NCBI RefSeq assembly: GCF_000003815.2
Contig: NC_049981.1
Coordinates: forward strand, 19,828,789 to 19,892,788
Source of the DNA: Branchiostoma floridae
Lineage: Eukaryota; Chordata; Leptocardii; Amphioxiformes; Branchiostomatidae
Direction: 5' to 3'
DNA length: 64,000 nucleotides
The translations under genes and the position numbers were made by a program. Positions 1 through 29,286 of the stretch are shown one piece after another; position 1 is the stretch's first letter; each line of letters opens with the position of its first letter. Under the pieces are notes generated by a model. The model had not been told where the DNA came from and made no database searches. It was given only the letters and a program-made list of their open reading frames with translations.

Positions 1-900
1 TCCTGATCGCCCAATCACATAGCAAAATTCAACCTACTCATGAATACACCTCCCTTAGTAACGTAAAATCTCGACAGGACAAGAACTGTACTAATCTTTA
101 TTGTAGAAAGTCTCTGTTCCATCCGTATAAACTTGCCTTGATAGCCGGGAAAGCTTCGACATTGGCACAGGCTGTCACTTTTTTTTACCGACACCTGTAG
201 TAATTGGCACTCAGGTCTATCCGTATTCCGTATAAACCTCCCTCGTAACGAAAAGCCTCTACATTGTAGTCTGGTATGTAAAAACAACCTCAAAAGTACA
301 GTAATCCATTAAATGTGTTAAATTTACTGCCATATCACCGACTTAGGTGATCATATGTGCAACAACAATACACTATTAGTATGGTTGACCCGGAAGCAGT
401 TGATCCTTGTCCTATATCCCGGTATATCGGAAAACCCCATGCAGTGCGTAACTCGTCCCGAAAACAATAGCGAAACGCACCACTGAAACCCTGAAAATTG
501 GTCAACTTTCAGGCGTAATTACATGACTTCTAACTGCGGTCTAGCTTTCAAAAATAGTTCCTCGTGATTTATCAACCCCTTCCAAGAACGGGGAACCATT
601 TTTTAGGCTGATATAACGCATCGCGGCTTTACTATACCGTTTTCTTTGAGATCTACCGTAAGAAGTCAATACGGCTACGTACAGTGTGCCCGCTTATAGC
701 CACCACAGAGTAGTGACCATTGGATGTACCCCTTTCAGCATAGTTCTGGGCAGTCAGACTTGACCTCTTTTCAACTGCTGCTCATCTCTATTCCTTGGTT
801 TATGAAACATACATTGAAACTATAATTCTGTTGCAAATTGTGGAAATTGATGGTCATATATGTCCTTTACTTCACATTCAAAACCATACAAAGGTATCAA
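1..900. other. CpG-retaining segment, no gene recognised
   Basis: The first ~770 bases are richer in CpG and more balanced in composition than the AT-rich DNA that follows. Short reading frames exist on both strands, but none resembles a known protein or has convincing splice context. It could be the 5' end of a neighbouring gene lying to the left, or an old transposon. I cannot tell which. Confidence 0.3.
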
Positions 901-3900
901 AAAATTTACACCAGTAAGATAAATTTAAAATTTAGACTAACGAAGACCACATTCAGAAATCAATGAGCAGTTCATGCAAAAGCCTTTATTGGTTTTGCTC
1001 ATTAACATGGTGGGTAACGAATATGTGATACATTCACCTCGTTGAGATAAGCAGAGTGAAGAAACAGACATCTATTCACAGGATAGGTACATACTGTAGT
1101 GACCACAGTACAGAAAAGGATGATATTGAGCTATCACATATTAGACACATAAAAGGAAATCCTAAACCTTTAATGCATCAAGAACTTCAAATGTAACATT
1201 GTAAACTTTGTGTGTATTACCTTGTAACACTACGGCTTTTTACTATCACAGATGAAGTCTTTGAATACCTTAGTACTGTTGCAACTGTCATATCTACGAG
1301 TATGTAATCATGTCTACATACAGACAAGCTCTGCGCATTACAGCATTACTGTGAAACAACTGGTATATCATCAAGTATTGAACAACATTCCACAAAATGT
1401 TAAGGAATCTTCTAACCCCAGTATCAATTTTGTTCNNNNNNNNNNNNNNNNNNNNNNNNNNNNNNNNNNNNNNNNNNNNNNNNNNNNNNNNNNNNNNNNN
1501 NNNNNNNNNNNNNNNNNNNNNNNNNNNNNNNNNNNTGATTGAAACTTTGTATGCAAACATATCCCAACTCTTGGGTGATAACATTTCTACCAGTTTCAAC
1601 CATGGCCTGTATTTTGCCTTGATGAGATGAGCACTAAATGTTTTGCATTCTGTGCCTGGAACATCATGACGACAGTGCTTACTTTTGTTTCTCAGTGTAA
1701 GAGATGTCATGACCCATGATATTACATGTATCATATTAAAACTTAAGTAAAAGGTGATTGCCATTACAGTATCTGCCATAATTGGTAGTAATCTGATACA
1801 AGCAAGAGTTGAACATTCTAATAGTTTTAGCATTCTGCAATGTCACTTTAAAAACTGTATCACATTGCAAATTATTTACTGTGGTTGGAGCATATTTCAG
1901 TGTGATTTGAGTCCAGTATCTTGTATCAATGAAGAAGAATACTAGTTTTGTACACAATAACACCAAAGTCAATATGTTTATCCACAAAATGGTGATGGAC
2001 CTACACGTACTGACATGTCAAGCCTTACATATGCAGTAGCAAGCTGAAGCAGGTGATTACATTTCCTAAAGAACAATGTCTGTCCTTACTGATAGTGACC
2101 AGTGACATGACAGCAGTGTATAATTAACAACTATAGCAGTGTAAGACCACAGAGCCATAATGAATAACAATGACTAGTACACTTGACATTATACACTGCC
2201 AGCTCACACTGTAGCACCGTGCAATTCTTGAACTAGGCAAAATGCACAAACATGTAATGTACATGATTTAAGACGCAGGAAAGATACCATGCAGCGTTCT
2301 CATGTAAAAGGGACATGGCCTGGCCACCTTGTAGTCAAACTTCTTTCAGACCAAATTCTATTCAACTCGTAAACTTGCCAAAGACTTTGAAAATCCCTGG
2401 TGCCCAGTCACCTGGTACCGTCACCATGCAATCATTCATTGCATGGCTAGCCAAAATGAAGTGTGGAAGGCCAAGACAGCCATCTCAGTGCCATCATAAT
2501 TTTCTGCCAATCATGCCTCATATTATGCTTTTCTAACAATCTTCTTTTTTTTACCTCTGGAGTGTATAAATAGTAGTGAAGACATAATCTTCAACCTTAC
2601 AATGGTATAACACTGGCCACTTCCAATTGAAATAAAAAAAACTTGGTGATGTTGAGGAGCTTGGGAATTATTTTCAGAATTTTTTTTTAAATCCAGAGAT
2701 GCACATCAATTCAAAGAGCATGCCTTCACTTGCGTAATGGTACCTTTGTTTCTGCCATAGCCATGTTTATGTTGGATGTAAAAATTGCAACTTCAAATTT
2801 TGCACTGTCAGTCCTACTTTGAAGCGACTGGTGTTGAGTGGTAAGCAACTGTTCTGGAGTTGTATTACAGCATGACATGACAAAATCCAACTAGTCTTTA
2901 GGCTTTACAAAATACACCGTTTGAGGCAGGCTGTGTTCAGTGAATGCTTTCACAATGTTATGTTTGAATTGCATTGAGAAATAATATGCTACCTATTAGG
3001 ACCATTGTGACAAAAGCTGTTCTTTTCAAAACTGTGAAACAAAATTCAATAGAAATTACAAAAAGTACATTATTTTTTTACCAATATACTCAATAGTTAC
3101 TTTATATCTGTCTCAGATATACATGTTATCACATATGCAAAATGACAGCACAATACTCTACCATCTACTGAGACCTGTACCTGGTGATTTAAAGGAAATT
3201 TCAGGTGTACGTAAAACAAATATGAGTTAGCTAGTCTACATAGGAGCTGGCTATAATACAAGTGCCAGGAGGCTTTTGTTCATATCAGTAACACAAGTAT
3301 AATGCAAATTTTAGATATCATATAATATTGCTAACACTTTCTTACAATCAAGTCAACAATATTATTTAACATAATATATCAATACAGAAGTATGGACACA
3401 ACATTATCAAAACATAAATGTACATAATTTCTACTCATCTTTCAGCAGGGAGCTTTTGGAAAGTATGATCAAAAATAACTTTTGCAGAAAGTGAAATGCA
3501 GAAAACAAAATTTGTTCTCAACTTACAAAAGATGACCTTATACAATTTGTGGTATATCTGTACCACAACAAAACGTAAACCATCAGGAACTAATGCATGA
3601 TATGATACCGCTTGTAAATTTATTACAATACATAATCCCAATGGCAGGACAAGAGCAAAAACTGTTTTCACCTATGTCACAAAAGTCAAGTGCAGATCCC
3701 ATGGTAAGTTTATCTTGCCAAAATTCCACTTCATCAACATTCCTGGTTTTCAAGTCCACTGCATTAAATTTTTTTCCATACATTTAGGTCAAAATAAGAT
3801 CCCATTCATTCAGCATATGCCATCCATCTCAGATAGTAAGGTAGAAGAAAATGCAAAATTTTCAAAAAAGCAAGATATGCATATAAAACACAGACCTAAA

Positions 3901-4549
3901 AAAAGTTTTTAACATGGGCTCTGCCAGTGCATTTCCAATATTTTATCATGTGGCTATCTCACTGTAGATTGTAGAGGATTTATAACTGAGATGTTTACCA
4001 CCCATCGCAGGTACATGTATCTGGGTAATTAACCACCATTGAAAATAGTGTATATTTCTAACAATTGCCAAGATTTCCTTCCAAAAGAAAGGGAACCTTG
4101 TGTACCAGTAGAACAGTGTACATGTAGTTATGTTGCCTTGTAGTAAAACCTGCTGTGGCAAGGCAGCTTTGACTATGTGATAGTTGTAGATCTGCACAAT
4201 GAACCACTGAACTTTGCTGCACTGGCTTCTCAAGTCTCAACTACATTCTAAAACATCTGTCTCTACTTTCTCCCAATTAACCCTCCTAACTACATTTACG
4301 ACTAAGCTATTCTCATTCAATTCTGCACAGTATCTTACCTTTTTTTCTTTTCACAGAACCAATTAGTACATGTACACAAAAAATAAAATCCTACCCTCCA
4401 CCTTTCTTCGCTTGGCAGTTTGTTAGTCCAACTTTTTACCTGTCACTTTTTTTTTGCATGGAACGTTTTAACATCATGTTAGCCTCCAAGTTTCTTCTTT
4501 GTTTGTTTTTGCCTTTTCTATGTATATTTTAATCTATTACCAGTGCTGC
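901..4549. other. AT-rich non-coding stretch, probably the 3' side of CRK
   Basis: No supported coding region is seen. The DNA is AT-rich with frequent stops on both strands. The part nearest 4550 should include the CRK 3' UTR, since CRK is on the minus strand and ends at 4550. No clear poly(A) signal position can be assigned. Confidence 0.4.
1436..1535. other. Assembly gap (100 N)
   Basis: A run of exactly 100 N is a placeholder of unknown true length. Reading frames drawn across it are artefacts. Confidence 0.98.
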
Positions 4550-5485
4550 TTAGCTCCAAGATGAATCATTTTCCTCAGGATTACTAGGGTCGATAATCTT
4601 AACGTGATTGAAGGGGAAATGTCCCGTTTTCCCCTTGAGTTCTCCCTCCCATTGCCCGCTGGCATTGATCTTGGTTACTCGGATTATGTCGCCTACTTCC
4701 AGCGTCAATGCCGTTGTGTCGTAAGGACTGGGGATTTTCTGTTGTATGACGCGCGCGTACACTGGGCCATTCTGTGGGTTGGGCAGGGGGTGGGGTGTGG
4801 AGGCTGATGTGGCAGATGCTGTAGAAGACGATCCTGATTCACTTCTTATGCCAGCTGCCTGTGGGTCATGGTAGCCGGGCGGGGAGTGGGGCTGCTGGGG
4901 ATGAGATGGGGCAGCGCCTGTAGTGGTTGAACCAGGTGGGAGTACCTGGACGTACGGAACGGGAATCGAACCCTCTCTGCCGTCCTTGTTGCGTACAGTC
5001 CACCACTGGTCTTCATCCTTTCTAACGACAACCAGTATTTCGTTTTTCTTGAAGGGCAAGTCCTCTGGATCGTTTCCGTCAAAATCGTAGAGCGCTCGAA
5101 CGCGTTCCTCCATTACACTGGGAGTATGTGCGGGAGCTAGAGCCTGGGCCTGGGGTTCTGGCGGTCCTCCAGCCGGCCGCTGCGCTGGAACAATCAACGT
5201 GGTCGTGTCAAGGTAGTGTATCTTGTAGAACTCGATCAAAGCCGGCAGGTCATCGAAATCCTGGTCACCAATCCGGAAGCCCTTCTGCAGTCTGTTGATG
5301 ATATAGTGGCTGACTTTGCTGTTTTCACTGACAGAGAGCACGAAGTCCCCGGGACAGCTGGAACTGTCGCGTACCAGGAACGTCCCGTGCATCTTCCCCT
5401 GCAGTAAGTCCTGTGTGGGAACACGGGGAATAGGCCCAAAGTACCACTGTCCCATGTCACGGGGGTTGAAGTTGGATGCTGCCAT
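4550..5485 (-). CDS. CRK: CRK/CRKL-type adaptor protein (SH2-SH3-SH3)
   Basis: This is a complete 311-residue adaptor coding region on one exon. Seen: an SH2 domain at about residues 13-118 with the FLVRD phosphotyrosine-pocket motif (Arg39); a first SH3 at about 126-182 ([15 protein letters not shown] and the WW pair at 161-162); a Ser/Pro/Thr-rich linker at about 184-235; and a second SH3 at about 240-298 ([16 protein letters not shown]). The CRK family (vertebrate CRKII is about 304 residues) links phosphotyrosine scaffolds such as p130Cas and paxillin to C3G and DOCK180 in the cytoplasm. The start chosen is the ATG at 5483-5485, because the open frame upstream lies in an intron that ends with a splice acceptor at 5501-5502. 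The linker lacks the YAQP site known from vertebrate CRKII but has YHDP at Tyr205, another YxxP motif. CRK and CRKL cannot be separated here; this is probably the single invertebrate orthologue. Confidence 0.95.
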
Positions 5486-9328: not shown

Positions 9329-12300
9329 GTTTGTCAAAATCCGACTTTTTTTGCTATTTTCTGGAGCAAATTTTGACAAATATGCGAATATTTTATGAAA
9401 AAGATAAGACGAACTAACGTTTGGAATGAGCGCATTGGACTGACACCCTATTCGCCCTGTTCTTTTTTAGTTCTAATCTTGACTGTGTGTTTGTTTTCAT
9501 TTTTCCTCACCCCCACACCAATCCATCTAGCCTTTCTAGGTCAAATTCCTCCTAGGTAACACTATTTAACACGGTTTTACAGACTTTCTACGAAATATCT
9601 GTCCACAAGTACGCTCCCTCGCCCACACATATTTAACCTTACTCTGAATTGCAAGGCCATTGGGATCATCATCATCATCATGGGTTACCCCCATATAACC
9701 CCGCAAGGGGCAAAGTAGGGGGGGAGCTGAGGTCCCGGGTTAGGGCGGGCAGCCCTCCTGCCTGGCGCGGAAGCTCTCAACTGTGGGAGCACTTACTACC
9801 GCACCAGGCAGGGAATTCCACTCCGGAATTGTTCTAGGAAAATATGAGTACTTGTATGTGTCTGTTCTTGCAAAGATTGGTTTGTACTTATGTTGATGGC
9901 TGCCTCGGGTTCGCCCTTGGGTCGGAATCAGTAGGTTCTGTGTGTCTATGTTAATCTTGTTGTTAACTAACTTATAAAAGAAGGTGAGGCGGGCGTTCCT
10001 CCTCCTTTCGGAGAGAGGACGCCACTGCAGGTCATTGAGCATTTGTGTCACGCTGCTAGTCTGCCGGTAGTCATTGAGGGTCACTCGGGCTGCCCTGCGC
10101 TGGACGGCCTCCACCGCCTGTATCCCTTTGTTGGTGTACGGGTCCCAGACGGTGGCACTATATTCCAAGTGGGGCCGTACCAGCGCTTTGTAACAAGTGG
10201 CCTTGACCCTGGATGGACAATGGGTCAAGTTGCGCCGAATGACCCCTAGGACCTTACCAGCTTTGCTAGTGGCGTGGTTGATATGGGTGTCCCACCGCAA
10301 ATCGTCGGACAGTTGTACTCCAAGATAGGGGTGGGACTTAACACCGGTGAGGGCTTCTCCACAGAGGGAGTACTGTGTTAAGATGGGGTGCTTCTACGGG
10401 GTGATATGGAGGATGTGGCATTTAGAGGGGTTGAACGACATAAGCCAACGATTTTGCCATTCTGTTAACGCATCGAGGTCAGACTGCAGATCTTGAGCGT
10501 CAGAAGGCTTGCTGATAGTTCGATAAATCAAGCAATCGTCAGCAAATAGCCGAACATGTGAGTCTACGGAATCGGGTAGGTCATTAATGTAGAGCAGGAA
10601 GAGCAGAGGGCCTAAAACAGTACCCTGCGGAACTCCAGAGGTGACCTTAACAGCTTTAGATGTTCCACCGTCAAAGACGACCGTCTGGGTTCTCTCCGTA
10701 AGGAAGGCCCTAAGCCAAGACTGAAGTAGGCCAGAAATGCCATAGTGCTCGAGCTTGCTCAGCAGACGTTCGTGAGGCACTGTATCGAATGCCTTGCTAA
10801 AGTCAAGCACCGCGGCATCGACCTGTTTGTTCTGGTCCATGTTTTTGGCCAGGTCTTGGAGGGTTAGCACCAGCTGGCTCTCGCAGGACAGACCCTTCCT
10901 GAAGCCGTGTTGCGCTGGGGACAGAATGCCATGAGTGTCTAGATGTTTCATCATGTGGCTGTGCACGATATGTTCGAGCACTTTACCACAGACCGATGTC
11001 AGAGACACCGGCCTATAGTTTGCAGGCAAGGTTCTGTCCCCCTTTTTGAAGATTGGAGCGATGTTAGCTGTTCTCCAATCTTCAGGAACATCTCCCGTGG
11101 ATATTGACTGGGAGAATATGACCTGTAATATTGGCGCAATTTGTTCGGCTACAGTCTTCAGGAGGCGAGGTGGTATTCCGTCTGGTCCTGTGGCCTTGCT
11201 GGGGTTAAGACAGGAGAGCTGTTTGGCTACCCCCTCCACTATGATGTTAAGGGAGGGGATAGTTGGAGCTTTGGGTTCACCAAGGGTAGGAACGGTGGTC
11301 TTATCCTCCCTGGTAAACACTGACTCAAACTGGGCCCCCAGTGCATTGGCTTTTTCTTTGGGGTCAGATGTTAGCACCCCCTGATGTCTTAGGGCCGACG
11401 CACCAGTAGAGTCTTGTCTGATGGATTTGACATAGCTCCAAAAGGCCTTGGGATTTTCCTCGATGTTAGACTCCAGATAGTTGGAGACGTAATCCCTGTG
11501 GGCCTTCCTAACTCTCTGCTTAACTCCCTTCCTACACCTCTTGAACTTTGCCCAGGCTTCACTGGAGTTGGACCTCCTAGCCTTGGAAAAAAGTTCAGAC
11601 CGCTTACGCATAGCTTTGCGAATCTGGGATGTTATCCAGGGTTTGCTGGATTGTGGCCTCACTTTTTTCCTGGGGACATGCTTATTGGCAGCACCACTAA
11701 CGGCTGCCTTAAACAGCTCCCAGTTTTCTGAGGCAGTATTGTGCTGAGCCTGGTCTGCGAACTCTCGGCTGTATGTTACCATATCCTGTTGGAGTGCATC
11801 GATGTTAGCTTTCCTCCACAAGTATATGAGCCGATCTTTTGTGTTTGATGTTTGGGGCTTTACTTGAACATCAATCAGCGGGATGTCATGATCGCTGAGA
11901 CCTGGCAAGATTTTGACTCTCTCCACTAAGGTGGAATTTGTGGTGAGAAACAAATCCAGGGTGTTCGAAGTTTGCCCCACTGTATGTGTTGGTTCGCAGA
12001 CCATTTGTTCCAGACCACAGTCGTTGGCAAGGCTGATGTAATTGCTAGTGAGAGTGGATGGATTCGAAGCGGTGGTATTAGCTTCAGGGTTCCAGGTCGC
12101 ATCCGGCAGGTTGAAGTCACCTGCTAGCCAGATGTGGGCATTGTTGTTATCAGCCCGCATTTGCAGCACTGATCTTTCTAGCGCTACAAAATCATCATGA
12201 CCAGCTGAGGGGGGGCGATAGTAGGCCCCTATGTAGATGGACTTACTGTTAGCCAGGTGGACCCGGACCCAAGTCAACTCGCAGGGACAGTCCGGGTCTG

Positions 12301-15300
12301 GGTGGTGGGTTGCTATGATGTTGTTCTTTACAGCAACAAGCACACCCCCTCCCCGGCCAGCTCTGTCTCTCCTGAACACATTGTACGTGTCCGGAAAGAT
12401 TTCGCTGCTGCCCACTGACGAGTCCAGCCACGTCTCAGTGCCAACAACAATGTCTGGTTGCACAGCTTCGCAAAATGCGTGCAGTTCAGGTACCTTATTG
12501 CGGATAGATTGAAAGTTGATCACACAGGTCCTGACTGGTTTGGTATGTGTGCGGTCGCGAGGCGGTGGAGTAATACCATATCCGATAGGCGAAGACGTAG
12601 CGATAGGTGAGCCGATAGATCTTGCTGGACTAGAACAGGTGCTGGTGTTAAAAGAAGAGAAACAATTAGAAGTTTCGAATACTGTAGTGTTGAAGAGGCT
12701 GGAGCTGAAGTTAGGTAGGCCGCAGGAGCAGCAAATCCAGGACACGTTAGGGTTGTTGATGGTATTATAGACCGGTGTTGACATACCCATGCAGTCAGTA
12801 TGGTACCAGACATCACATGAGTCGCAACAGATGGCATGCCGGCCGTCCACCTTTTCCCACCTGACGGCTCGATGGCATACGCCGCAGGGGTACTTCGGTG
12901 CCCTACATGTAGGTCCCGGATTTAACTCCACATCTCCAGCCAGAAGGATTATCAGAGTGAGACTGAAAAGTGTGAATTTAGGTCTGCAGTGGGGTGCTAG
13001 TTTACCATTAGAGTTAATAAAGATAGAGACTAATGTTAACTTCAGGGAGTGATTGGCACATGTGTTGTCCAGCAGGGGAGTTAACGGGAATGGACTGTTA
13101 AAGGATGGGTTAAGGGTGTGAGGTTTGCCTTCATGCCTGGGAGTGAAGGGGGAGGGATTATGGTGAGGTTTTACAATTAACGCTAAGCAGTGGGCTGTTA
13201 GTAGAATGGTACCCAAAATAACTGAGAATGTAACGAAACATGTCATAATGCTTGACCTGCAGGGGTACTCTCCTACTCAGCAGGAGGAACGCCACGCTGG
13301 TGAGGGGCGAATTACATATTGAATATACAAATATACAATATACAAAGCAGAAGTACTATGAAATGAAAAATGGAACGATCTGGTTTTTCATCTAACATTG
13401 AATGAATGAATGAACATTATTCATTGAATGATGAATGAATGAAAAAAACCTTTGTTGTGGATTTTTATTCAACTTAGCTGGGGCAACGACGCAAGAAGAA
13501 AATCGTAATATTTTGGCGTTATTTTCTTTGCGACGTTGGGGCGGAGCCCATAGGGCTAAACGGTATTTGCGTATCCGTTCCGTGGAGATACCTTTTCCTC
13601 CGGTTTTCTGCACGTCCCTGGCTTCCCTGGAGCTACTAGTCTTGCCTACTGCGCCGTGGTGTTTGCCGTCTTCAAAACCCCCTGAGTTAGTCTCTACCAG
13701 ACTCCGGATCGCTGGAAAAATCGTAGAAATGGAACAAATCAGAGGAGTAAGCCGGCCAGAGGAATATAACCGGCCAGGGAACAGCACGCGATCGTCGGAG
13801 TCTGTGGAATCCCGGTGTCTTGTTTGATGTCCACTAATCGCTATCCAATAGGTGCGAAGTGGCTAAATAACCCTTTTATTGCTTTCCTACTCGCCCGTGA
13901 CGGTCCAAGCGGGGCGAGCCTGTCACATGTGACCTTCCTCTAAAATTAATACTCGGCAGTTTACAGGCTTAAATTCCGAAAAAAAAGTACATGAATAGAA
14001 ATAACAGACACGCCGGAGCGCGGTTCATGTTGTTCTGAATAATTAGTCAAAACTTTATTGACACGACGAGTACCGTACGCTTGACGGCCGCCGACTCTGG
14101 CCGGTCTGCGGCCAGCTAAAGGCCGAGGCTGCCAACACAACAACAACAGCCCACTCGATACTGCTGTCACGAAATGGAGATCTAGAAAAACATGTGAGTG
14201 GCGAGCGACAAGAGAAAACATAGCGATAACCACCACAGACTATGGTTCAGAAGTCAGGACCAAACTCGGCATTGAGGTTTAGCAGCGAAGAACTCGGGAG
14301 GACGTCAGCGAATCGGCCACGTGATTGATGAAGAAGGCGTCCCAGAAAGAAGTCACCCGCTTCGAAACGAAAGAGATCGCAAACTCCCCACACAAAAACA
14401 TCGGCAGGCCCCAGAAACTTGGTGACCTCGATGCGGTGTTACCGGACTTTGTAAGAACCACACAGCGGCGCCATTTTCTTTGTTTTGTTTGTGCGCTCGG
14501 CTGGCGGGAGAAATCTGGCGGTTTGATTCCGAATTATTAATTATATTTTTTTTTTACATAAGTAAAAAGCTCACTTACATATTACACTTTTGACGCTATG
14601 AATTAGAATAATTCTAGCTAGAAATTTGTAGGTTTAAAACGCATTTTTTCGTAGTTGCTCTTTTTTTAACAATTTGTGTGACCAAGGAGGTTAAAGAAAG
14701 CCTTGGTGTGACGCCATTTCTGCTGCTGTTGTCTGCACGCTAAGATGTCGCTGGCATTTTCTGGAGATTTATGTAACCTCTTAGCAAAACGTGAATATCG
14801 TAAGCATTCTGTAAATTGTATGGAGAAACTTTGAAAGTGTAGTGTGAAATAGTATTGATAAATACAATTGTGTAAATACGCAGCGAAGTTCAGCTCGTAA
14901 CGAATTTGTTTGCGTATGATAACACGCCATGCTTTCATACCCATGCTTTGATACCCTTGCGTTTGTAAAAAAATTACGACAAATTTTCCGTATAAATAAA
15001 TGTTTATTTCTTGAAGAACGACACACTTTTTATTCCTGTGTGAATTACTAGTGTTATGTGCGCATGTTTCGGTTACGAAATGGAGCATGATTGTGAACGT
15101 ACTAGTATAAACATGACTTGACACCAGTAAACAGTGCCGCATCAAGAGGGAGGGGGGTGGATTCGCGTAATCAAAAAGTAGCCACGATGAAAATTTAGTT
15201 GTCGTTAAAACCGCTAAATGTAAGTTATTGTTATAAAATCAAGGATTGGGAACAGTTTGACGTTTGTACCGAAAAAGGCTTATAGAAATAGTCCGCGTTT

Positions 15301-17930
15301 GCCGGACGCTGGTAGACGCGCCCCACGGCGCGTCAATTGATTTATGGCTTAAATGATCTGAACTCTGAAGCTACTGTCTTTGTGCAGAAAATGAGCGGAT
15401 TAGTTTTATGGCCTTTCAACTAACCGAAAGTCGACAGACTCCTGGGATCGCGAGCTGTTCCCTGGCCGGTTATATTCCTCTCTATTTGTTCCATTTCTAC
15501 GATTTTCCAGCGATCCGGAGTCTGGTAGAGACTACCCCTGAGTACTCCACAACGTGACCTGTTACAGACATTCCCGCTCCCCGAAATCTTCCGAAGCGTT
15601 GTTGGTCATGTTGGGTGGCGGTTCGGCCATAAAACGGGAAGCTCGGAATCGCCACCGAACATGACCGACAACGCTTCGAAAGATTTCAGGGAGCGCTGCC
15701 GAACAGCCAAAATGGCGCCCCGATTTGTAAAAACAATGAGGAGTGTTTGCAACAGGTCACGTTGTGGAGTACTCAGGGGGTTTTGAAGACGGCGAACACC
15801 ACGGCGCAGTAGGCAAGACTCCAGGGAAGCCAGGGACGTGCAGAAAACCGGAGGAAAAGGTATCTCCACGGAACGGATACGCAAATACCGTTTAGCCCTA
15901 TAGGCTCCGCCCCAACGTCGCAAAGAAAATAACGCCAAAATATTACGATTTTCTTCTTGCGTCGTTGCCCCAGCTATATTCAACTGAGCTAAGTACAGGT
16001 CTCGAGAAAGACACGTTACAAACATACAGGTATTTTGGTCTTGCAAAATGCCAGCAACATCTGTTTATTAATTAGAAGAGGGGCCTAAAGGATCTACTAT
16101 CAACTATAAATAGGTTTGACTTCTTGACAATGGTGAAGATGTTATAATTTATGGGTTTAACTCCTACCTGGCTGAAACCACTCCAGTCTACTCTGGGTTA
16201 CACTATAGAATGAATTGGAGTTTCAAGACCTTTGCCGATTGATTTCAACCTTTAAAACTGGTGTATTAATTTTGTTTGTTATTAATTATGCGAATAAGAT
16301 CCTCATTTGCATTAATCATACTAGCTGTTTATCAATATCATTTCCTCCACCCAGATAGATCTAACTATCAATATTCGTCTCTTTCAGAGTAACAAATGTC
16401 ACATGTTGCAATAGTCCTACATGTATAGTGGAGCAAAGCGGTTTTACACAATATCCTCATTAATTATGTAATCCAAATTCTGATTAGCATAATTGATATT
16501 CAACCATATGAAGCACCACCTAAGCTATGTAAATACCAAAAATCATGACGATCCATCATTACATGCCCTTTTTTGAGGAAGGAGGTTGAAAAGAGGAACA
16601 CTAAAATGGCCCCTGCAGTTTAAAAACAAACTGCTAGGGGCCCAAACCTACCAGTATATCACTTACTCTCAACCTCAAGAGCTGCCTACCACTTAGAAAT
16701 CATAGCCACACCATGTCTAGAACTCAAGATATCAAAACCAGAAGTTCCACTGAAGTACCGTAACAAGTTGCTAGGCAGCTAGGGGGCCAAAAATCTAATC
16801 ATTTTCTCATAATTTTCATACCCCTTGTTCCTGTTGCAGCTACTGGCAAGGCTGGGTAGCAGACCATCCCTGGTCCAGCTGGAGACAGCCCTCTTCAGGG
16901 CTGACATGGGCCCAAAGTCAGGAGATGCCATTGAATTGTACGGACCTGAGGGGACAGTAAAAACCGAGATGCTACTCCACCTGACAGCCAGGTGAGGGTT
17001 GCAATTGGACAAGCCCATATGAAAACATATCATGTAAATCTTTGGGCTAGTGACAATTTGGTTTTGATAGTGGAAATGAGCAGGCTTTTCATTTGACGCC
17101 ATCTGGACCATGCTTGATTAAAGTGTGCATCTGTACAGCACACAAAGGTGCTACTGCTTGATCCTATTATCTGCCATCATGACTTCAATGAATAACCTGT
17201 GTAGGACCAACGAATTTTTACTCAACCCTGCAGGTGTATCCTGCCAGCATCCCTGGGTGGGCTGGAGGCTGGCGTGGTGTTCATTGACAATGACTACCAT
17301 TTCGATATCCTCCGGCTTGTGACAATACTTGAAGGCAGGTTAGACACTACAGACGAAGACAGAATGAAGCAATGCCTGGGCAGACTGTACATTGTGAGGT
17401 GCAACAGCAGCGAACAGTTAGTGATCACTCTGCACTCTCTGGAACACATCATTGCATCATCCTCAGAGGTAGCTCTGCTAATAGTGGACAGCATCTCAGC
17501 TTTCTATTGGTTAGACAGGAGCACAGATGACAGCATGTCAGGGCAGGAACTAAACCAGAGACGATGTGTGGACATTCTGTCTAGATATCTCAGTGACTAC
17601 GGGATTGTCCTCATTGCTACCAAGCAAGCTTTATTTGGGCACAAAAGTAGGAAGAACCAAAATGAAGATACCACATTGTCTCCAAAACTTGAGAAAACAA
17701 AAGTGGAAAATGTAGAACACTATGAGTACATGTGCCATGCTTGGCAGAACCTGATTAAGTATCGTTATGTATTTTCAAGAGCTACAAAGAAGGACATATC
17801 TATAGAAGAAAATGGTAAAGACATCTCTTCTTTTAGTGCTACTATGATAAAGCCAGTAGAACACAAATGTGAATTTACTGTTGCCGATAGAGGGATCTCC
17901 TTTATGGGTTCATTGTATAACCAATGCTGA
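9299..17930 (+). CDS. XRCC2: XRCC2, RAD51-paralogue DNA repair protein (gene span, 3 coding exons)
   Basis: Coding exons are 9299-9328, 16840-16991 and 17234-17930. Together they make 879 nt, 292 residues plus stop (human XRCC2 is 280). XRCC2 belongs to the BCDX2 RAD51-paralogue complex acting in nuclear homologous recombination. Seen: an ESGAQ|LLARL junction that matches human ESGTE|LLARL with the intron in the same phase (0); a Walker A region GPEGTVKTE at 45-53; DNDYHFDILRLVTILE at about 79-94; and a Walker B-like VALLIVDSISAFYWLDR ending near 156. Val50 (codon 16957-16959, GTA) replaces the usual Walker A glycine. The C-terminal part after about residue 200 is poorly conserved, as in other species. 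The 30-nt first exon is supported by its position, its phase, a good start context and a GT donor at 9329. The second intron splits a codon after two bases. Confidence 0.92.
9740..13246 (-). pseudogene. LINE polyprotein: 2A peptide, PHD finger, AP-endonuclease, reverse transcriptase; one nonsense codon
   Basis: The frame runs 950 codons from ATG 13244-13246 to a TAG at 10394-10396, then continues in the same frame to TAA at 9740-9742. Only one stop breaks a ~1,168-codon frame. Seen in order: hydrophobic N-terminus (residues 3-25); second hydrophobic stretch (91-103) leading into GDVELNPGP (104-112), a 2A-like motif; a C4HC3 PHD-type finger (C121, C124, C141, C144, H149, C152, C172, C175); an AP-like endonuclease (VINFQSIRNK, GTETWL, GDFNLPDATW, LSDHDIPL, about 240-460); and a reverse transcriptase (ATGPDGIPPRLLK, LDFSKAFDTV, GVPQGTVLGPLLF, catalytic FADD at 901-904). 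The segment after the stop is the usual C-terminal helical region of such enzymes. The stop makes this copy probably inactive unless it is read through. Confidence 0.92.
12911..12937 (-). other. 2A-like translational recoding motif in the LINE frame
   Basis: The codons read GDVELNPGP (residues 104-112), the full D(V/I)ExNPGP consensus. In 2A peptides the ribosome fails to form the final Gly-Pro bond and continues, giving two proteins. Here it would separate a ~111-residue hydrophobic leader from the PHD-EN-RT protein. 2A motifs are documented in APE-type non-LTR retrotransposons, including those of sea urchin and amphioxus. Confidence 0.9.
13309..13474. other. AT-rich spacer with TGAA/AATG short tandem repeats
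   Basis: Between the LINE 5' end and the first inverted-repeat arm lies AT-rich sequence with (AATG)n/(TGAA)n-like repeats at about 13398-13442. No gene seen. Confidence 0.6.
13475..13812 (+). repeat. Left arm of a ~340-bp inverted repeat (composite MITE)
   Basis: This segment reappears in reverse complement at 15424-15976 with a few percent divergence, apart from an insertion in the second copy. Its right part (from 13688) begins TAGTCTCTACCAGACTCC, the terminus of a hAT-like MITE family also present near 24616 and 56214. An open frame over the segment occurs in both copies, but only because the copies are nearly identical; I see no protein-level support. Confidence 0.75.
13813..15423. other. 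Segment between inverted-repeat arms, no gene recognised
   Basis: XRCC2 intron 1. The first ~700 bp (to about 14530) is CpG-rich; the remainder is AT-rich. Reading frames of 60-160 codons occur but show no recognisable family. The sequence at 14681-14700 (ACCAAGGAGG then TTAAAGAAAG) recurs in a hairpin at 51610. Confidence 0.4.
15424..15976 (-). repeat. Right arm of the inverted repeat, carrying a nested foldback element
   Basis: Reverse complement of 13475-13812, interrupted at 15535-15780 by an inverted-repeat element absent from the left arm. The two arms are separated by about 1.6 kb and could form a large stem. Confidence 0.75.
15535..15780. mobile_element. 246-bp foldback element nested in the right arm
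   Basis: Terminal inverted repeats of about 29 bp start CCCCTGAGTACTCCACAACG and end with the complement. Inside, a second inverted pair (about 15586-15620 against 15650-15692) covers most of the interior, so the whole unit can fold into a long hairpin. The left arm retains only a CTGAGT-like remnant at the same place. Confidence 0.7.
16500..16790 (+). repeat. Interspersed repeat of unknown class
   Basis: It contains phrases (a TACCAAAAATCATGACGATCC segment and a GCTAGGGGGCC-type segment) that recur, diverged, at about 44915-45130 and, in reverse, at about 40124-40200. It looks like an old multi-copy element just upstream of XRCC2 exon 2. Confidence 0.45.
16840..16991 (+). CDS. XRCC2: XRCC2 coding exon 2 (Walker A region)
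   Basis: Acceptor TTGTTCCTGTTGCAG precedes 16840 and donor GTGAGG follows 16991. Encodes residues 11-60, including GPEGTVKTEM. Human XRCC2 has an intron at the start position in the same phase. Confidence 0.9.
17234..17930 (+). CDS. XRCC2: XRCC2 coding exon 3 (Walker B and C-terminus)
   Basis: Acceptor CAACCCTGCAG precedes 17234. The first base completes an Arg codon split by the intron. Residues 62-292 follow, ending with TGA at 17928-17930. The open frame is long and uninterrupted, and DNDYHFDILRLVTILE is diagnostic. Confidence 0.93.
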
Positions 17931-27365: not shown

Positions 27366-29286
27366 AATACTGAAGACCTTGGTGTCCTTGGTGCTAGATA
27401 ACCTTCACTGTACCTTTCCATAGTGCTAAAGAGCCTTCCCTTTGACTTGACTTATGTGCTGAAGGGCCTTCCCTTTACCATTATTTAGTGCTGAAGAACC
27501 TTCCCCTGCCCAGCCCTTGGTGCCAAAGAACCTTCCCTATACCATTCCTTAGTGCTGAAGAACCTTTATTCATTACAACCTGTTCTTCATACTGAAGAGC
27601 CTTTCCTGTCCCATCTTTAGTCCGGAAGGACCTTCCATGTACCCTGTCCTCAATGCTGAAGGGCCTTCTTTGTACACTGCCCTTAGTGCTGAACACCTCT
27701 GTACCTTGTTCTTGTTGCTGAAGGGCCTTCTATCCCTGTCTTAAGTACTGAAGAACCTTCCATGTACCCTGTCCTTAGTGCTGAAGGACCTTCTCTGTAC
27801 CCTGTCCTTAGTACTGAAGACCTTCCATGTACTCTGTCCTTAGTACTGAAAAAAAACCTTCTCTACATGCTGTCCATAGTGCTAAAGGACCTTCTTTGTA
27901 CCCTGTCCTTAGTGCTGAAGGACCTTCTCTGTACCCTGTCCTTAGTGCTGAAGGGCACTGTTGCCGAAGGACCTTCTCTGTACCCTGTCATTAGTGCTGA
28001 AGACCTTCTCTGTACTTTGTCCTTAGTGCCAAAGGACCTTCTCTGTACTCTGTCCTTAGTGCTGAAGGACCTTCTCTGTACCATGTCCTTAGTGCTGAAG
28101 GGCCTTCTCTGTACCCTGTCCTTAGTGCCGAAGGACCTTCTCTGTACCCTGTCCTTAGTGCTGAATACCTTCTCTGTACCTTGTCTATGCCTTGTCTCTA
28201 TACCTTCTCTGTAAGTGCTGAAGGAGCTTCTCTGCACCCTGTCCTTAGTGCCGAAAGGACCTTCTCTGTACCCTGTCCTTAGTGCTGAATACCTTCTCTG
28301 TACCCTGTCCTTAGTGCCAAAGGACCTTCTCTGTACCCTGTCCTTAGTGCTGAATACCTTCTCTGTACCTTGTCTGTACCTTGTCTCTATACCTTCTCTG
28401 TAAGTGATGAAGGAGCTTCTCTGTACCCTGTCCTTAGTGCTGAAGGGCCTTCTCTGTACCCTGTCCTTAGTGCTGAAGGGCCTTCTCTGTACCCTGTCCT
28501 TAGTGCCGAAGGACCTTCTCTGTACCCTGTCATTAGTGCTGAAGACCTTCTCTGTACTTTGTCCTAGTGCCAAAGGACCTTCTCTGTACTCTGTCCTTAG
28601 TGCTGAAGGACCTTCTCTGCACCCTGTCCTTAGTGCTGAAGGGCCTTCTCTGTACCCTGTCCTTAGTGCCGAAGGACCTTCTCTGTACTCTGTCCTTAGT
28701 GCTGAATACCTTCTCTGTACCTTGTCTCTATACCTTCTCTGTAAGTGATGAAGGAGCTTCTCTGTACCCTGTCCTTAGTGCTGAAGGGCCTTCTCTGTAC
28801 CCTGTCCTTAGAGCTGAAGGACCTTCTCTGTACCCTGTCCTTAGTGCTGAAGGACCTTCTCTGTACCCTGTCCTTAGTGCTGAAGGACCTTCTCTGTACC
28901 CTGTCCTTAGTGCTGAAGAACCTTCTCTGCACCCTGTCCTTAGTACTGAGGGGCCTTCTCTGTGTCCTGTCCTTAGTGCCAAAGGACCTTATCTGAACCC
29001 TGTCCTTAGTGTTGAATGACCCTCTCTGTACACTGTCCTTAGTGCTGAATGACCTTCTCTGTATACTGTTTGTAGTGCTGAATGACCTTCTCTGTACCCT
29101 GTCCTTAGTGCTGAATGACCTTCTCTGTACCCTGTCCTTAGTGCTGAAGGACCTTCTCTGTACCCTGTCCTTAGTGCTGAAGGACCTTCTCTGTACCCTG
29201 TCCTTAGTGCTGAAGGACCTTCTCTGTACCCTGTCCTTAGTGCTGAAGGACCTTCTCTGTACCCTGTCCTTAGTGCTGAAGGACTG
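27366..29286 (+). repeat. 33-bp minisatellite array, ~1.9 kb
   Basis: The consensus unit is CTGTACCCTGTCCTTAGTGC followed by TGAAGGACCTTCT (33 bp). Copies are irregular before about 27740 and nearly uniform after. Variant units (GAATACCTTCTCTGTACC, then CTCTATACCTTCTCTGTAAG) recur at about 28163, 28352 and 28706, so the array has a higher-order structure. Because 33 is a multiple of three, several frames on both strands stay open and give spurious repetitive ORFs (11-residue period). It lies between the two secreted paralogues. Confidence 0.93.

Follow-up and report, generated by a model that had tools for sequence, protein, structure and literature searches.

A signal-like leader ahead of a predicted StopGo/2A site in a single-ORF PHD LINE of amphioxus and in some distant LINEs

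Introduction

2A (StopGo) sequences have already been published in LINEs, in agreement with the original prediction on this DNA, which had called the motif class a known one. Odon et al. 2013 (doi 10.1093/molbev/mst102) reportedly described 2A sequences in APE-type non-LTR retrotransposons of the clades Rex1, Crack, L2, L2A, CR1 and Ingi; several of these are said to be active in vitro, and they are said to tend to accompany single-ORF elements. These elements share with the copy studied here a 2A core within an APE-RT LINE frame. The trypanosome elements L1Tc and ingi reportedly likewise carry an in-frame 2A in a LINE (Heras et al. 2006); they belong to another clade. The accessible part of a LINE survey (PMC4120745) describes elements whose apparently single ORF encodes an N-terminal PHD finger along with APE and RT (L2 subgroup 4, CR1 subgroup 6, Jockey superfamily), and our LINE resembles these subgroups in having PHD, APE and RT in one ORF. 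The sole description there of the region before the PHD finger is that it is highly repetitive in some elements, and the terms "2A peptide" and "self-cleaving" occur zero times in the text of PMC4120745.

Two further systems are close in mechanism. The 26-residue N-terminal 2A of sea-urchin NLR proteins is, in the part of PMC4981915 available, itself the signal sequence; since 2A and signal are one, the signal would still be in the exit tunnel when the 2A acts. StopGo motifs 2 and 6, the leucine-rich ones described from RNA virus ORFs, finish with (A/S/C)G and are paired with D12; activity in lysate was seen for a representative of motif 6 (PMC12846837, available part). Thus 2A in LINEs, single-ORF PHD LINEs (PMC4120745) and 2A-linked dual targeting (PMC4981915) are all known, as far as the available portions of these sources go. 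Here we describe a LINE from a 64-kb stretch of Branchiostoma floridae DNA (the window) in which a 2A core stands behind a separate signal-like leader, and we compare it with distant LINEs carrying the same core.

Results

The window contains a near-intact, well-kept copy of a single-ORF APE-type LINE with a PHD finger, all features of which lie on the minus strand. Pfam domains PF00628 (PHD), PF03372/PF14529 (endonuclease) and PF00078 (reverse transcriptase, RT) were found in a single frame of 950 codons. The PHD finger occupies residues 121-175 (12722..12886; Pfam PF00628 and the ligand pattern) and starts nine residues past Pro112, followed by the APE-type endonuclease at residues 244-453 (11888..12517; PF03372, PF14529 and motifs) and the RT at residues 734-946 (10409..11047; PF00078, FADD at 901). 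What we take to be the endonuclease and RT motifs stand at the expected places (N244, ETWL271, GDFN376, SDH451, FSKAFD816 and FADD901). On its domain order, the element would be filed among the single-ORF PHD LINEs of the CR1/L2 lineages. A probable 5′ UTR was placed at 13247..13310 from the sequence, and a short ATG tandem repeat lies near the 3′ end (9667..9681). Comparison of the flanks gave no exact target-site duplication of at least 8 nt, no second copy of the LINE was found within the 64-kb window by blastn or tblastn, and Rfam gave no match at gathering scores.

The frame is interrupted by an in-frame TAG at codon 951 (10394..10396), beyond which 217 codons plus a stop (9742-9740) remain open (9740..10393); the ORF at 9740-10300 had no Pfam match. 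Because this TAG breaks the frame behind RVT_1, the window copy as sequenced would give a truncated enzyme. We considered the TAG as a programmed readthrough site and rejected this reading, as the codon lies just behind RVT_1 and not between domains. Three of the distant LINEs described below (L021, L037 and L047), which have an uninterrupted frame from the 2A across the RT region, also counter it. The TAG is more likely a nonsense mutation.

Several other features were observed in and around the element. In sequence, the PHD finger at 12722-12886 has its closest solved counterparts in Pygopus (E 2.7e-06). Pygopus PHD fingers are readers of histone H3 methylation, and the likeness perhaps points to a LINE targeted to chromatin. 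Long, nearly perfect inverted repeats (arms of 165 nt at 98%, and others of 50, 32 and 23 nt) lie at 13468-13739 and 15484-15983, close to the probable 5′ end of the LINE, and resemble a foldback or MITE-type element. Elsewhere in the window, at 27385-29284, minisatellite units near 33 bp are arrayed over about 1.9 kb and keep long frames open, and the frame at 17274-17930 has a Rad51 match in Pfam.

The 2A core GDVELNPGP (residues 104-112) was identified by translation of the minus strand at 12911..12937, exactly where the original prediction had placed it, and lies in frame within the PHD-endonuclease-RT ORF. Its codons are GGA GAT GTG GAG TTA AAT CCG GGA CCT. Residues 105-112, DVELNPGP, match the StopGo/2A core D(V/I)ExNPGP, and the predicted skip falls between Gly111 and Pro112. 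The back-translated core pattern had one match in 64 kb and none in 100 dinucleotide shuffles, and the amino-acid composition of the LINE ORF gives an expectation of about 3e-6 for D[VI]ExNPGP. By sequence, the residues ahead of the core, IILLAG, fit the leucine-rich StopGo class that ends in (A/S/C)G. Like the viral motifs 2 and 6, the window core is of the D12 type and follows leucine-rich residues ending in (A/S/C)G, although that motif set was defined on RNA virus ORFs and our sequence is a LINE; at p15 the window has Leu, which is common overall, whereas motifs 2, 4 and 6 prefer Ser (PMC12846837, available part). The fit of IILLAG to a published StopGo class makes skipping likely, and we regard ribosome skipping at Gly111/Pro112 as highly probable.

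The leader ahead of the skip runs from Met1 to the skip glycine (residues 1-111; 12914..13246). Its frame has 0 stops, compared with 13 and 8 in the other two minus-strand frames, and an equally open frame appeared in 0.6% of 5000 base shuffles. Met1 (at 13246) is the sole in-frame Met ahead of residue 153, which is inside the PHD finger; because no other Met precedes residue 153, an intact PHD-EN-RT enzyme could be made only via the leader, unless non-AUG or internal initiation occurs. Across the whole ORF, hydropathy is highest in two peaks, at residues 7-25 and about 91-108. We delimited from these an N-terminal, signal-like hydrophobic segment (residues 7-25; 13172..13228), a Pro/Ser/Thr-rich linker with one sequon, N65-H-S (residues 26-90; 12977..13171), and a second hydrophobic, leucine-rich stretch ahead of the core (residues 91-103; 12938..12976). 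By insertion energies, segment 7-25 would pass as a membrane span, and the second stretch together with the polar 2A residues would fall short of membrane-span values. No Lys or Arg occurs before residue 26, which is weak for a classical signal peptide. Predicted without an alignment, the structure of residues 1-179 contains low-confidence helices at 2-25, 55-79 and 88-104; its mean pLDDT of 49.6 is too poor for use in a structure search. Three parts of the original prediction were supported here: a leader of about 111 residues with two hydrophobic segments, a likeness of its start to a signal peptide (by hydropathy, residues 7-25), and the order of hydrophobic stretch, 2A and PHD finger.

To place the leader in a wider context, we compared it with other LINEs that carry the core. 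A scan of public microbial genome contigs with the core as search key returned 43 loci with 44 in-frame GD[VIM]ExNPGP, and six of the 43 (L020, L021, L022, L037, L039 and L047) encode distant LINEs by tblastn. The queries were seven LINE proteins (that of the window and those of the six candidates), run over all fetched loci. The window protein was matched by all but L022, which was matched by L021 and L037; below the tblastn cut-off with the window protein, L022 gave 38% identity over 34 residues in blastp (E 0.001). In the long EN-RT matches, identity to the window is no more than 24-34%, so that the leader-2A plan would be either old or convergent; one 80-residue stretch of L020 reaches 45%. 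Pfam recognised RT and/or endonuclease in the 2A frames of L021, L022, L037 and L047. It gave no match in the 2A frames of L020 and L039, both of which have an EN-RT frame downstream, and no PHD at E 0.01 in L039 and L047, whose alignments to the window PHD take in the 2A stretch. All six records are labelled bacteria or archaea. Four of the contigs (L021, L037, L039 and L047) are 3.8-4.5 kb long and mostly LINE, that of L020 has 6.1 kb, and L022 lies within a 35-kb contig; the six loci are probably eukaryotic contamination of microbial records. The strict 2A-PHD pattern had 0 matches in public microbial genome contigs. In IMG/VR, the window protein had 5 pattern matches and no relative by tblastn, the 2A-plus-PHD pattern was found at 8 loci with its NPGP part of a D(V/I)ExNPGP core in 0 of 8, and the core itself was found at 2 loci, both without a leucine-rich stretch upstream.

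Two of these LINEs have a stop codon between their ORFs. L039 (JAAXHI010000280.1, reverse strand, nt 2-4366) has a 2A/zinc-finger ORF and an EN-RT ORF in the same frame with one stop between them, TGA CTA, which we take to be a leaky stop context; the first in-frame Met beyond it is codon 274, inside the enzyme. This arrangement may combine StopGo and stop-codon readthrough in one LINE. L020 (JAAEPJ010000017.1, reverse strand, nt 373-5088) consists of leader, 2A and ORF1, one TAG, and a same-frame EN-RT whose first Met is codon 53; its ORF1 shows a coiled coil by eye and has no Pfam match.

The leucine-rich context accompanies the core in all of these LINEs. We scored this context as present when two or more of the last six residues were Leu and GD was preceded by A, S or C, and found it in 7 of 7 LINEs (the window included) versus 0 of 34 other occurrences of GD[VI]ExNPGP. 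The upstream context was not part of the search key. The LINE loci were first spotted by eye from their upstream leucines, and the LINE class used in the count is the tblastn result; the candidates were themselves among the queries, yet each also matched another LINE. The 34 others comprise 32 from public microbial genome contigs and 2 from IMG/VR. The Fisher value of 4e-8 is inflated, because these others are mostly prokaryote DNA and hold look-alike sets (L011/L041, L013/L030 and L031/L032). The count excludes GDMExNPGP in L035 and L044, the pair of cores in L014, and both vector records, L040 and L051.

We then compared the leaders themselves. Leaders were judged where the start was definable as the first Met behind an upstream stop; only four of the seven qualified (85-111 residues counted from that Met), because L022 has no Met in the leader frame, L047 has none in a 5′-open frame and L039 is 5′-open. 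Later Mets would yield shorter leaders in L020, L021 and L037. Peak hydropathy in the first 28 residues was 2.45 for the window, 2.73 for L037, 3.32 for L020 and 1.45 for L021, so that three of the four leaders have a signal-like N-terminus (at least 2.45, the cut-off being the window's own value), and L021, with a peak only near residue 38, does not. Control ATG ORFs were taken from the six LINE loci plus the window and may include real genes; among them, this value was reached by 3 of 179 (at least 50 aa), 1 of 124 (at least 60 aa) and 0 of 47 (at least 85 aa). The corresponding binomial value is 2e-5, or 8e-4 without the window, for a small set and a test devised after seeing it. Shuffling within leaders gave p values of 0.012 (window), 0.0014 (L037), 0.0002 (L020), 0.51 (L021) and 0.058 (the 5′-open L039). 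L037 is closest to the window in plan, with a hydrophobic start, a Pro/Ser/Thr-rich linker containing a sequon, and a second hydrophobic stretch at the 2A, but its endonuclease follows the 2A directly, without a PHD. The Pro/Ser/Thr fraction of the linker is 0.34 in the window and 0.36 in L037, versus 0.16-0.22 in the other leaders. Alignment of the leaders among LINEs gave nothing convincing outside the 2A. These comparisons show that a plan of hydrophobic leader plus 2A recurs in some distant LINEs.

Other core loci are of different kinds. L014 (VGXS01000063.1, 2-7387, minus strand) encodes an LTR-type polyprotein with RT, RNase H and integrase, CCHC falling below its cut-off; it contains a 2A core upstream of the RT part and a second between RNase H and integrase, and no direct repeat of at least 30 nt was found within the 8 kb examined. 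The available parts of the best 10 of 17 literature matches offered no clear precedent for LTR elements with 2A. The short contigs L040 (Pseudoalteromonas caenipelagi) and L051 (Proteiniclasticum aestuarii) carry the same 2A, presumably P2A, followed by what we take to be an antibody-light-chain-like sequence, and are probably laboratory vector contamination in public genomes.

Discussion

We propose that StopGo divides the product of the frame in two, a small leader directed to membranes (residues 1-111) and a PHD-EN-RT enzyme beginning at Pro112, and we give this reading, as judged from sequence, a probability of roughly 0.55. Membrane targeting of the leader, taken by itself, appears somewhat better than an even bet. 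Translation would begin at Met1, from sequence the sole AUG able to yield the intact enzyme. The N-terminal hydrophobic segment would then emerge and be bound by SRP ahead of 2A synthesis. The ribosome-translocon complex holds 65-70 residues (PMC2978324, available part); the leader, with 111 residues here and 85-111 in the four judged, is longer than this, so that engagement of the signal would precede the action of the 2A. Core and context suggest that, once Gly111 is in the P site, the leucine-rich stretch and DVELNPG would stall the ribosome, after which the leader would be let go and synthesis would resume at Pro112. The leader might persist as a small membrane peptide of one or two spans, and the enzyme would emerge at the cytosolic face of the membrane on which its ribosome is docked, next to its own mRNA, with RNP assembly at the membrane as a possible gain. 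A minor unskipped fraction would remain tethered: where skipping fails, the second hydrophobic stretch may keep the fusion in the membrane, and the product may be membrane-anchored rather than simply secreted, with the enzyme on either side depending on whether the first segment is cleaved or serves as an anchor. Against the mechanism speak L021, which has no signal-like N-terminus, and the window leader's want of Lys/Arg ahead of its hydrophobic core. Some constructs with N-terminal signals separate well in vitro and poorly in cells according to the available part of PMC2978324, so a cell-free assay alone could mislead.

The 2A could also be active with a leader that has no targeting role, a short remnant or spacer that the skip trims off the enzyme and that is hydrophobic only for the sake of the 2A context. 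L021 fits this explanation, as does the failure of the leaders to align outside the 2A, and the second hydrophobic segment needs no membrane role, because a leucine-rich stretch belongs to one StopGo class (PMC12846837, available part). Such a leader would, however, leave unexplained the separate N-terminal hydrophobic segment seen in 3 of 4 leaders versus 3 of 179 control ORFs, which in the window lies some 80 residues away from the core, and we consider this account doubtful. Still less probable is that the motif in this copy has lost its function or resembles a 2A by chance, and that the LINE makes one fused protein. The in-frame TAG at codon 951 could be read this way, and chance GD[VI]ExNPGP does occur in prokaryote DNA (the 34 occurrences counted). 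This is very improbable given that shuffles lead us to expect 0 core matches in the window, that six other LINEs have the same context versus 0 of 34 chance occurrences, and that the remaining frame and the domain motifs are intact.

The original prediction went further in proposing that the 2A decides between the secretory path and the cytosol. Its premises hold, since the leader is signal-like and the core canonical, but some 80 residues separate the end of the signal-like segment from the core, so that in the window the signal could engage regardless of skipping. The switch it described is the published model for sea-urchin NLR (PMC4981915, available part), which resembles our locus in combining a 2A core with a hydrophobic upstream tract and in tying recoding to targeting. 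There the 2A tract is the N-terminal signal, whereas in the window the core starts at residue 105 and the signal-like segment, at 7-25, is separate. Dual targeting of this kind, with incomplete skipping routing some of the enzyme to the secretory path while the remainder stays cytosolic, is documented for the sea-urchin sequences (PMC4981915) and is named as a probable role of partial separation in nature (PMC12846837), in the available part of each source. We nevertheless find it unlikely here, because the second hydrophobic stretch may stop transfer and a LINE enzyme would have no evident use in the secretory path, in addition to the separation of signal and core.

Our preferred reading, a membrane-directed leader and a released enzyme, can be extended beyond this copy. 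Tentatively, a class of LINEs may be translated from the ER, with a signal-anchor leader docking the ribosome and StopGo freeing the enzyme at the membrane surface. It is equally tentative that docking and release form a two-part module, distinct from the sea-urchin NLR switch and common to LINEs about 24-34% identical in EN-RT. A separate signal-like leader in 2A-LINEs had no description in the available parts of the literature matches listed; with moderate confidence, we regard such a leader, common to some distant LINEs, as the new aspect.

Single-ORF LINEs have no usual RNA-binding ORF1 protein, and the question addressed by our reading is by what route they assemble their RNP. The esterase ORF1 of other LINEs has a suggested role in membrane targeting and RNP assembly (PMC4120745, available part). 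If our reading is true, a StopGo-released membrane leader would be a stand-in for ORF1, and RNP assembly would be sited at the membrane. The element would also be a natural test of StopGo on a translocon-docked ribosome, where some artificial constructs fail (PMC2978324, available part). The recurrence of the leader-2A plan hints that LINEs built in this way may begin life at a cell membrane.
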